Source: Pempheris klunzingeri (lineage: Eukaryota > Chordata > Actinopteri > Acropomatiformes > Pempheridae). From it: a stretch of DNA of 64,000 bases. Within the stretch, counting starts at the first letter, position 1; the number at the start of each line of letters is the position of its first letter. Shown here piece after piece: positions 13,793-20,300 of this stretch. Location: contig NC_092020.1 in NCBI RefSeq assembly GCF_042242105.1, forward strand, positions 10,128,501 to 10,192,500. Direction: 5' to 3'. The translations under genes were made by a program, and so were the position numbers. The notes beneath the pieces were generated by a model. The model was not told the DNA's origin, made no database searches, and saw only the letters and a list, made by a program, of their open reading frames with translations.

Positions 13793-14862
13793 CTAACCAA
13801 CATTTATATATGGAGTCAAAACAAAGTTTTCTGGTACCTCAGAAGCAGGGGCATCGTCGTCTGGTCCGGGGATGATTCTGCCAGTCATGGGCCCCACTCC
13901 GAGCACCATGGGCCGTTTTTCTGCTTTAGGTGCTCCCTCCAGGACCACAACAATGTACTCCCTCTGGGGACTCTCAGCCAGGGCTTCTTCCATCACAGGG
14001 CTGGCTACGTCTGCAGGAGGGGCTGCTGCAACTTCTTCCGTGACAGTGGTAGTGTCTGGTTCTTCAACTGCAGCTGTGGTAACATCTGCCAGGGCCACTG
14101 GTGCTGAGGCTTCTTCTACTGGTGCAACCTCCACTGGTGCAGGGGCCTCTTCCACAACTGGTGCAACCTCCACTGGTGCAGGGGCCTCCTCCACAACTGG
14201 TGCAACCTCCACTGGTGCAGGGGCCTCCTCCACAACTGGTGCAACCTCCACTGGTGCAGGGGCCTCCTCCACAACTGGTGCAACCTCCACTGGTGCAGGG
14301 GCCTCCTCCACAACTGGTGCAACCTCCACTGGTGCAGGGGCCTCCTCCACAACTGGTGCAACCTCCACTGGTGCAGGGGCCTCCTCCACAACTGGTGCAG
14401 GGGCCTCCTCCACAACTGGTGCAGGGGCCTCTTCCACAACTGGTGCAACTTCAACTGGTGCAGGGGCCTCCTCTACAACTGGTGCAACTTCAACTGGTGC
14501 AGGGGCCTCCTCTACAACTGGTGCAACCTCCACTACTGGTGCAGGGGCCTCCTCCACAACTGGTGCAACTTCAACTGGTGCAGGGGCCTCTTCCACAACT
14601 GGTGCAACCTCCACTGGTGCAGGGGCCTCCTCCACAACTGGTGCAACCTCCACTGGTGCAGGGGCCTCCTCCACAACTGGTGCAACCTCCACTGGTGCAG
14701 GGGCCTCCTCCACAACTGGTGCAGGCTCTTCTACTGGTGCCACTTCTTCAACAGGCTTTTCCTCTACTGGTGCCGTCGTCTCTTCCTCTTTGATGTCTTC
14801 AGTGCTGGGTGCCTGTATTTCTATCTTCGGTACCTCTGGAATAGAGGCAGCTGCCAGCAGCA
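13793..14862 (-). CDS. Candidate alternative 3' exon of mgarp: Pro/Val/Glu/Ala tandem-repeat tail
   Basis: A minus-strand open segment of about 355 codons, entered through a TGTTGCAG acceptor at 14863. Its phase (needs one base from upstream) matches mgarp exon 3 (24332) or the 18-nt microexon, so it can be spliced in place of the exon at 17839. It encodes an acidic lead, then about fifteen copies of a 13-residue unit, [13 protein letters not shown], then a non-repeat end with [12 protein letters not shown] second phase-compatible acceptor lies inside, before EVPKIEI. The stop (TAG at 13793) overlaps a strong donor (TA then GTAAGT), so the true exon may continue elsewhere. It could instead belong to a separate gene. 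Acidic low-complexity composition, strand, phase and position favour mgarp. Confidence 0.6.
14110..14730 (-). repeat. 39-bp coding minisatellite
   Basis: Tandem 39-bp units encode [17 protein letters not shown] 13-mers. Some copies are shortened to nine residues and one contains an extra Val. The array lacks stops in several frames on both strands, creating long spurious open frames on the plus strand. Many copies differ only by silent changes, so copy number is probably polymorphic. Confidence 0.9.
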
Positions 14863-16409
14863 CTGCAACACAAAATCCAGCCATCCAAACATCACTGATG
14901 TTGAAGTCATATTTTCCTACATTTAGCCGACACACAACTGGAGGTGCTTAGCCAAAGTAACATGTATTTGGGAGACCCTTCTAGGGACAGAGGAGATCTA
15001 TCTGGTGGACTGTGACAACATGCATGTGGAAAGTCAACACCCTGCAGTGGAGGAAGCTTAAGAGAAACAAAAGCATTACAGGAAAACTGTGTTAGTCAGC
15101 TGGGGAGTCTATGTAGTGCCACAAACCAAATAAGTATTTACACATAACAGGAAAGATGCAAAGCCTGCCACAGAAACTCCACAGACAAACACAAACCAAG
15201 AGCACACTCAGTGGGTCATTGTGGTGTTTGGAAGCAGAGTAGTAGGCTAAGTCAACAGACATCAGTGGATACCCATGGTTGCTTTGTGTACCTGAAACAC
15301 CGCTGGATTAGAATTTGTCTACATATGGTTCGCACTGCTAGGTCTGAGTTTACAGCTTAACTGGGCACTGCCACAGCACCACATTGGACTGTAGAGGCAT
15401 CTGCTGTGCCCAGTATCATGTGGTCAATCTTAGCGTCCACAGAACTAGACAGGTCTTGGACCATTTTATTTAAATAAAATAAGTTTGCTACACGTCGTCA
15501 GAATGTTCTTCTCTGGTGATTAGGTCTTTGTCAATAATGTGTCAAAACCAGACTAGTTGCCCGGCATGCACGTTTGAGCATTTGGAGTAGTTCTCGTGAG
15601 GACAGATATTTAGTAATAGGCATGTTGTATGGACATGTGTGACCTTACAGTGTGTCACTTGAGTTTTAAGGCTGATGGATAAATATTTGAAATTTAAAAA
15701 ATATGATATATATCAGCCAATATTTGTTTTTGAACATGAAAAGATTATAAATCTCTTAATTCTGCTCATTAAAGAAGCATTGACCAGATACAGGATGTTC
15801 TAAAGGGACATTTTATAGTTGAAGTTTACTGGTCAGCCCTCTCAGGTGGACTAACTGCAATTCCTATAGATCAAAATGTTCAGCAGTACTGATATGTAGT
15901 CTGATGGGGTAAAAACTCATACACCGGTCAAGCTCTGTTCAAGATTTGAAAAGAAGCATACCACCATTCACACAGCATGCAGCCCCCATCTCACATGTGC
16001 CCCTACAAAGTATATCACCATACAAGACACAAAGGATGCGTCTTGATGAATGCAGTCATCCGATAAATGTACGGTACAGTGGAGCAAAGACAAGTTGGGT
16101 GCAGAGTGGTGAGAAGCAGGTGCAGTGAAGAGTTAAAATTCTCACTTGATAAACGGAAAGAGCAGGCTTGTGTCCAAGTTCACTTAAGACAAAAACTGAA
16201 CGTCTTGTCAACAGAAAATAGTACATTTGTGAAGAAAAAAAAAAAAAAGAGAGAAAAGGTAATGTAACGTAGTGTAAAAGAATGTAATTGTTGAGTTGGA
16301 ATGAATAACTAGAAACGCTCTCATCTTAAAGCTCCAGTACAAATTATGGTAGACAGACCAATTCAGACAAATTAAAGACGGCAATAAACCTTTGCGGTTT
16401 GATAAAAGC

Positions 16410-17399: not shown

Positions 17400-20300
17400 T
17401 TAAGCCTCAGAGGCAGCTGCCTCCTCGTCAGATGAAGAAGTCGTACCGTTGCTTTCCGGCTCCTCGGCAGCAACGGGTTCTGCAACAGCCTGGGCAGTCT
17501 CTTCGACAGCTTCGGCCACCTGGGCTACTTCTTCTGCCACCGTCTCCACTTCCTGCGCAGCCTCAACGACCACCTCGGCAGCCTCGGCGACCACCTCCGC
17601 TGCCTCAACGACCACCTCAGCAGCCTCGGCGACAACCTCAGCGACCTCAGTGACCACGTCATTGGCCTCAGCGACCACCTCAGCAACCGCCTCGGCAGCC
17701 TCTGCGACCACCTCAGCGGCTGCCTCCACTACAGTTTCTGTCTCGTCGCCAGCAGGTGCAGTAGCCTCCTCTTCGCCAACCTCAGCCTCTCCACTGGCTT
17801 CCTCAGCTGCTGCTGCTACTGCTGCCTCCTCCTCTCCGCCTGGAACACGAGAATCACAGGGACTGTGTTATCCAGAGCATCGGTCCGACTCACAGGGCGA
17901 ATACATTCTGTTGTCTCCTATAGTGAGCAACGACTGGTCTTGATGTTCACTCTACTACACTCCCATCCTAAACAACGTTCATGACTGGTGAAGACACTGT
18001 ACTTTCTACTACACATGCAGTTTGAAGATGCTAATCAAAATCTCACATTTGAGAAAAATAATCAGTATCTGCAAAGCAGCATTATACAAAATCATTATGT
18101 TATCAGTAGCTGGGTTTCCATTCAAAGGTGCAAACAGCCAAAAGGCCGAAAAAGAAGATCCATTGTGTTCCATTAATACCGACAAAATCTTCTTTATGCA
18201 CACTCAAATGTAGCAGGGCTGTCACTTTTTTTGAAAATTCAAAGAACCAGTACAACATAACTGGTTTCATCAGAGATCAAAGACACCTTGTGCCTTGGAT
18301 GAAAGAGGAACTTCCTAAAATACTCCGTCACTCTTATCTATTGCATGCTCCAGTTCCTGACAGCACTACAGAGCAAAACTAAAACAGCTTAGAGCCCGTT
18401 TACACCTGGTTTTAAAATGCATCTTGGCTTACAAGTGGACAGAGCTAAATATTAACCATTACTACTAGAATAAAAAGTGTGAAGGACCACAGCAAGACAA
18501 ATAGTCTGAAAAGTGTCCTGACACAGCCCCAACAAAGAATTAACAGCATAAAGCATTGATTGCATCTTTTCCTAAGCCACTGCCTTTATAACATTCTTCT
18601 GTTTTTGTCTCGTCCTGGGCTCTTCTGCAAATTGCAGACAAAGCCGACTTTGTCCTGCCAATTCCCAGCGGGAAGAGGCTGCACACGCAAGGTAGGAACC
18701 AAGTCTGGTGCTTTGCCTGCAACACGCCGACTGTGCACGTGGACCTTTGACCTTCCAGTGGAAGTAACATTGGCAGTGATGAAGTCTAAAGGCAGGAGAT
18801 TAGCTGGACACAGGTGTGATTGGCCATGTGGCTTGGCTGTCCACTTGTTCAGATGCACATTTTAAAAGCCAAGAATAAACATACTGTGAGTGTCTACAGT
18901 GTTTGGATCCTACTGTAAGAAGGTCTCACTGGAAATCATTTGAAATTACATTAGTTGTTACATTAGTTGTCATTTGTACTTGATTTTTGGAGAAAAAAGT
19001 GACAGCTCTGTAGATGACAGAAATTAATTTATGAATCACGTGTCAGATATTAGATGCTTTCAGAGCGGTTGCTGCTGCTGCCTGCATTGTTTGATGCATA
19101 CATAATGAATATCAAGGGTAGAACAGCTGTGTGAAAAGGAGATAGATTTTTGGATGGAAACAGCTACAAACAGCATGTTTTCCAGCAGGTTGATCCAGAA
19201 GTACTACTTCTAGAGACATTCCAGTCCAAAGCTTACCACTGCCTCTCTGCAGTCTGGTGAAAAGCCCCAGTGGCAATACATTTATTACACAAACTGCATG
19301 CAAACTCAAAGATAGGGGGGAGCACGACAAAGAGAGGGAGGGAGGGGGGGGGGGGGGGGGGGTAGGGTAGAGGGGTGTGGGGTCAGGTGCAGGGTAGAGG
19401 GGGGGTGAAGTTGAATATTGGTTCTTACCATCCAATTAACAAGCTATCAGTTATCTGGAACTCTGAAAGTGACTGACAGTGAGACAGATACTGAGACAGC
19501 CCAGGTAGGTTGTGCGTCTTTAATCTTTAACTGAGAGATACCTCCACCATTTGTTCTACACAAACCATTAACAAACACACACCAAGTAGTGGGAGAATAG
19601 CACCAGGGTCACGAGTGATCCCCGGGCCAAACACTTGAGCACTGACTATTGGGAGTGATAACAGCCTGCTGGGACGTTGGCATCTCGTGATGGTGGGCTC
19701 GATGCCAACACATTAGTTCTGAGAGGTGTCTTTTCATGATACCTCAGATACTCTTCAGAATAAAAGCACACAAGTCTCCTGGACAAAGCAAACAGGCTAT
19801 AGATTTATGTTAGACTGTCAGGTGGAATTATTTCTTTCTTTTGAGAGATGTTTTCGTGGCGATTAGCTGTGGCAGAAGTCTGCCACAGCTAATCGATACA
19901 AAAACCGTGACACACAAGTGAGCTGTAGCAAAGTCAAAACGCTTCACTGTTGCCACTGGTATGCCATGGTTGCTTAAGTGACGCTGCTGAATGTATTATC
20001 AGGTTTCCAAAAAGAATTAACTTTAGCTTCTGCTGCTAGAAGGACATGTGACAGAATTTTAAACCCAGTTCTTGGATGTCAACAACCCCAATACACTTTG
20101 AGGTGACCAACGTCCACCTTTATCTTTTTGATTCTTAAAATTTGTTCATTAATACTATTCCAATCCATTTCTTTGCATTACCATTACACTCATATTGTAG
20201 ATTGATACATACATCTTATATACTGTAATGTGATTCAGCCCCCCCCCTCCAATAGATAAAGTATTTCTGATTCAATGCTTGCCTTGGCGGTCTTCTTTAA

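Follow-up and report, generated by a model that had tools for sequence, protein, structure and literature searches.

The mgarp gene, its acidic tail and a possible second one

We analyzed 64,000 nucleotides of the Pempheris klunzingeri genome (contig NC_092020.1, positions 10,128,501 to 10,192,500; hereafter the window, from a host genome of 646 Mb in 439 contigs), focusing on mgarp, a gene for a mitochondrial membrane protein, and on a repeat-built open stretch downstream of it that may serve as a second acidic tail exon. A clear mgarp lies on the minus strand (Table 1). Its exons 1–3, which cover the presequence, the membrane segment and the post-membrane region, show the similarity expected of MGARP (PF14962): 24 of 78 positions (31%) are identical to the human MGARP sequence (BLASTP, E 7e-9). 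Against the Pfam family AIF-MLS, these exons alone score 18.3 bits (E 0.0023), which is under the curated cut-off of 29.9, and the human protein scores 342.8 bits. Searches of solved structures gave no match to exons 1–3. All three genome matches to these exons fall within the window, in a search that scores only the best candidates (here two).

The gene order is likewise of the MGARP type. It reads elf2–mgarp–ndufc1–naa15 in the window, the same as elf2–MGARP–NDUFC1–NAA15 on human chromosome 4q31. The minus-strand elf2 was recognized by its Elf-1_N domain (E 5.5e-13), the minus-strand ndufc1 (30.8–29.7 kb) by tblastn with the human protein as query, and the plus-strand naa15, which starts at 33.5 kb or earlier, by matches to human NAA15 structures.

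Downstream of exon 3 and an 18-nt, cassette-like microexon lie two stretches that could each end the protein. Tail A (exon 4) opens after a CAG with GC GGA GAG, so that it requires one upstream base, and continues for 145 whole codons to TAA. About 2.5 kb further downstream lies tail B, the next minus-strand stop-free stretch of at least 100 codons. Read from 14862, it follows a CAG, opens with TG CTG CTG, again requires one upstream base and stays open to TAG. The phase-1 end of exon 3, or equally that of the microexon, can supply this base. Both tails are acidic, with net charges of −44 over 145 residues (A) and −71 over 355 residues (B). The first-pass annotation had described two acidic tail exons on one strand, each in need of one base that either upstream exon would provide, and the first with its own stop; these sequence features are borne out.

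Table 1. Features of mgarp and tail B, in positions of the window; acceptor ranks are among the 1133 minus-strand AGs between 27000 and 10301
Feature	Position	Strand	Remarks
mgarp exon 1, coding part, presequence-like MLSCRAAWQRCGPLARRAAYRLPGD	26824..26899	minus	ends phase 1; donor 6.38
mgarp exon 2, membrane segment	24579..24679	minus	phase 1 to 0; within alignment to human MGARP
mgarp exon 3 AYTSVVSDNIRYNKRITELFSGSRAEWVPKPWPPK	24332..24437	minus	ends phase 1
mgarp cassette-like microexon, 18 nt	22704..22721	minus	phase 1 to 1; SRDEEE with exon 3; acceptor 7.33, rank 3/1133; donor 6.04, rank 5/1144
mgarp tail exon A (Glu/Ala/Val)	17400..17839	minus	acceptor 6.19, rank 12/1133; stop TAA
Two AATAAA signals past tail A	16410..16943	minus	first bases 16943 and 16415
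In-frame ATG 22 bases before 14862	14882..14884	minus	T at −3; signal-peptide-like start (by eye)
Candidate tail exon B (Pro/Val/Glu/Ala repeat)	13794..14862	minus	first base 14862, 14850 or 14835, all phase 1
Candidate ends of tail B	last base 13838, 13798 or 13794, else TAG 13795-13793	minus	
In-frame minisatellite	14118..14723	minus	39-bp unit, 15.2 copies, 92% matches (Tandem Repeats Finder)
Unique C-terminal region of tail B, starts ALADVTT	13796..14095	minus	single match in genome search

Repeat structure and probable coding character of tail B

The stop-free stretch that contains tail B runs from 14947 to 13796 (384 codons) and, with its antisense partner, is the longest in the window. 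It holds a minisatellite whose copy number agrees with the approximately 15 copies of a 13-residue unit that had been noted at first pass. The array resolves without remainder into 30 modules: 16 of 24 bp (APVVEEAP), 13 of 15 bp (APVEV) and one of 18 bp (APVVEV). The 39-bp unit is one 24-bp module plus one 15-bp module, and the single 18-bp module carries one extra in-frame codon. All three module lengths are multiples of 3.

Variation among the modules follows the same frame. When the 16 24-bp and 13 15-bp modules were compared, leaving aside the 18-bp module and the degenerate copies beyond both array edges, all four variable columns fell on third codon positions, although array copies are homogenised, so that these columns represent few independent events. 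None of the four changes affects the residue encoded in the sense frame, but every one does so in the two remaining sense frames and in two antisense frames. The repeat unit, the kept frame and the silent variation are those of a coding minisatellite, and the third-position-aligned antisense frame, in which the four changes are also silent, fits equally well. In the unique flanks no stop interrupts the sense frame, compared with three and two in the other two sense frames of the 5′ flank and four and five in those of the 3′ flank. Taken together, these features suggest that the repeat stretch is probably protein-coding.

Tail B appears to be single in this genome. Its C-terminal 100 residues and its 5′ flank (14723–14870) each match one place, and no second copy was found by the genome search, which scores only its best candidates. 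Searches of solved structures gave no match to the C-terminal region. A short pattern from it matched 33 stretches in viral contigs and 207 in prokaryotic ones; none was confirmed, and collections of viruses, bacteria and archaea say little about fish. The two tails differ in codon choice, though both are rich in Val, Glu and Ala. The observed/expected ratio of CpG dinucleotides is 0.65–0.66 in the tail A region (17201–18000) versus 0.05–0.06 in the tail B repeat (14001–14800). A further minisatellite is present elsewhere in the window, at 49066–49824 (14-bp unit CCTCCCCCTGACAT, 55.1 copies); the length of this unit, unlike that of the in-frame 39-bp array, is not divisible by 3.

Possible joining of tail B to mgarp

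Three AGs at the start of tail B (14862, 14850 and 14835) accept phase 1, the phase in which exon 3 and the microexon end, so that the same strand offers acceptors compatible with an alternative last exon of mgarp. They score 1.05, −0.53 and 3.03, respectively, the best being 14835; a join there would omit the hydrophobic LLAAASIP that a join at 14862 would include. Scored alike, the 19 acceptors of naa15 range from −3.72 to 10.22, with 1.05 exceeding six and 3.03 exceeding eight of them, in a set that takes the highest-scoring site close to each alignment end and therefore leans upward and may contain mis-picks. Based on phase, strand and acceptor positions, a link of tail B to mgarp is plausible.

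The 3′ end of tail B is ambiguous. Past DDDAPASE the frame runs on to TAG, and the final G of this stop doubles as the G that opens GTAAGT in a potential donor (GTTA/GTAAGT, the slash marking the splice position; donor 13794). Because this donor overlaps the TAG, the stop need not be the end of the exon. Donor 13794 scores 0.87, above three of the 18 naa15 donors, and the other candidates are 13838 (phase 0, −1.19) and 13798 (phase 1, 0.53). Beyond tail B there are acceptors at 13760 (6.32), 13756 (7.11) and 13328 (5.97). By eye, the stretch that follows the good acceptor at 13328, up to 13276, reads in one phase as an acidic open end, EEDVPFSNTFPASFYP, and a stop, and a join of 13798 to 13328 would read (E)EEDVPFSNTFPASFYP and the stop. 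The stretch 13328–13276 is thus a possible further terminal exon. As for the exon boundaries 14862–13793 proposed at first pass, the phase at 14862 and the open frame up to TAG stand, whereas 14835 is the higher-scoring acceptor and the TAG shares its bases with a donor.

According to the mechanism that we favor, the common form of mgarp would end in tail A, using the poly(A) signals of that exon. In a longer form, transcription would run past tail A, exon 3 or the microexon would be spliced to 14835 or 14862, and a different poly(A) site would presumably be chosen. The presequence and the membrane segment would be kept in both forms, while an acidic, probably disordered tail of 145 residues would be exchanged for one of approximately 350. 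Tail B itself may have grown by in-frame expansion of the 13-codon unit. We consider it about as likely as not that tail B serves mgarp as a protein-coding distal tail exon, swapped for tail A by a splice into the repeat exon. A broader proposal is more tentative: mgarp in this fish would switch between two acidic tails that were built independently, and one of these would be a coding minisatellite possibly varying in length between individuals. Much of the swap had been put forward in the first-pass annotation, and its gene identity, phases, strand, acidity and repeat structure all hold. Its statement that the use of tail B requires exon 4 to be skipped goes too far, since a weak donor (AACG/GTACGA, last exon base 17447, 1.55 bits) lies inside exon 4 and, because this donor is phase 1, a protein with both tails is possible on paper.

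A number of observations weigh against the coding character of tail B or its link to mgarp. The candidate acceptors are only middling, 14862 ranking 113th of 1133, and agreement in phase would arise by chance in about one case in three. A YTNAY branch motif 12–60 bases upstream was found for three of the seven sites tested, namely those of the three internal mgarp exons, and for none of 14862, 14835, 13328 and tail A. The degenerate copies at both array edges differ in residues, and a codon-likelihood score with 854 naa15 codons as its training set gave the sense frame of tail B no advantage and was uninformative. Similarity between tail B and the Pfam family of MGARP barely stands out from composition. 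Exons 1–3 joined to the start of tail B score 31.2 bits against AIF-MLS with the 14862 start, only 0.4 bits over the best of nine shuffled tails (18.3 to 30.8 bits). Since an invented acidic tail reaches 26.9 bits and the 14835 version only 21.6, the signal is mostly composition. Homology between tails A and B beyond composition is not clear either: out of 500 shuffles, 67, 149, 187 and 28 score at least as high as the four values obtained.

The serious rival, which we nevertheless consider unlikely, is a separate gene between mgarp and elf2. It would have its own promoter, would start at ATG 14884 or in an unseen first exon, and would encode an acidic Pro/Val/Glu protein unconnected with mitochondria. 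The frame indeed stays open for 28 codons upstream of 14862 and there holds the ATG followed by a hydrophobic run; a TATAAAA is present at 15817, and a better acceptor at 15041 (6.19) could begin a first coding exon that contains this ATG. However, we estimate that an ATG would occur by chance in some 28 in-frame codons about 1 time in 3, its T at −3 makes a poor start context, and the hydrophobic run overlaps the pyrimidine stretch expected ahead of an acceptor. From 14.8 to 17.4 kb three TATA-like sites occur, by estimate near chance level. Nor does any 400-bp window there reach both CpG-island thresholds. In a profile of 8–28 kb in 400-bp windows, G+C content above 0.5 coincided with a CpG ratio above 0.6 at 10.0–10.4 kb (elf2), at 26.0–27.2 kb (mgarp, where CpG-rich windows at 26001–27200 accompany exon 1) and at 17.2–18.0 kb (over tail A), and in no window of 10401–17200. 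At 16001–16800, the CpG ratio is 0.65–0.66 but the G+C content only 0.37–0.38.

The other alternatives keep tail B within mgarp in a different role or assign the DNA to the opposite strand. Tail B might be used together with tail A, through the 17447 donor or another splice, yielding a two-tailed protein perhaps extended by further exons at 13760, 13756 or 13328. The phase of the 17447 donor and the open acidic end read through 13798 and 13328 would allow this, but that donor is weak, one of seven from 17839 to 16401 with more than 1.5 bits, and the stop of tail A, with two AATAAA signals beyond it, points to a terminal exon, so that we consider the two-tailed form improbable. Equally improbable is a decayed, rarely used or remnant exon that was formerly part of mgarp and is no longer spliced in this species; the mediocre acceptors and the ambiguous 3′ end would fit decay, yet 384 codons are free of stops and the changes within the array are all silent. 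Least credible, to the point of being very improbable, is a Ser/Thr/Gly/Ala repeat protein encoded by the plus-strand frame 13797–14951. This frame is open over the same length, keeps all four variable columns silent and contains ATGs, with five acceptors of 2.7 to 5.2 bits at 13930–14074. With the plus strand equally open, an open frame by itself says little in DNA of this composition. Moreover, the corresponding antisense frame of tail A is open too (0 stops), which argues that the open antisense frame over tail B is a by-product of Val/Glu/Ala/Pro codons, and no plus-strand donor above 1 bit lies between 14701 and 15000.

Several observations concern the surroundings of these exons. Splicing of the repeat exon to elf2 exon 2 (8709) was considered and rejected by eye: phases 0 and 2 stop at once, and phase 1 is open but is not the elf2 frame. 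Just upstream of mgarp exon 1, a perfect inverted repeat with 20-base arms and a 5-base loop is seen by eye at 27240–27196. Rfam at gathering scores gave no match anywhere in the window. A second naa15 copy is present at C3:25268139-25268297 (94% over 53 residues). In the 80 kb around it, no match to mgarp, ndufc1, elf2 or the tails was better than E 0.15, and this region looks as it would after loss of duplicates.

Relation to known proteins and possible significance

The gene resembles known MGARP in its presequence-like start, single membrane segment, the motif that follows, acidic tail and elf2/ndufc1/naa15 neighborhood. Human MGARP has one acidic tail, whereas here a candidate second, distal tail exon is built of a minisatellite. 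Alternative last exons with alternative polyadenylation form a general class, and two tail exons compatible in phase, of which the proximal has a stop and poly(A) signals, are consistent with it; the distal tail here is a candidate predicted from DNA sequence. Alternative exons also change AIFM1 (AIF), the mitochondrial membrane protein after which the Pfam family AIF-MLS is named. In AIFM1 it is the membrane anchor that varies, whereas in the proposed mgarp forms the tail would vary and the anchor would stay. Among the matches listed in a search of the open-access literature, nothing concerned a second MGARP tail or a minisatellite-built distal tail exon.

Pro/Val/Glu repeats tend to attract one particular protein name. 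This name occurs in a fish muscle peptide list (PMC6473766) and in a fish liver transcript study (PMC4598134); any relation of either to this locus would be conjectural. In steroid-making and photoreceptor cells, MGARP has been linked to the abundance, morphology and transport of mitochondria (PMC3507827).

Should tail B belong to a separate gene instead, the conserved neighborhood would contain a further acidic repeat protein, an ordinary finding. If, on the other hand, tail B is a distal tail exon of mgarp, one mitochondrial membrane anchor would bear two very different acidic brushes, and the two forms may differ in function. Such a natural swap of acidic tails, one of them possibly variable in repeat number, would offer a direct way to probe the role of the tail.

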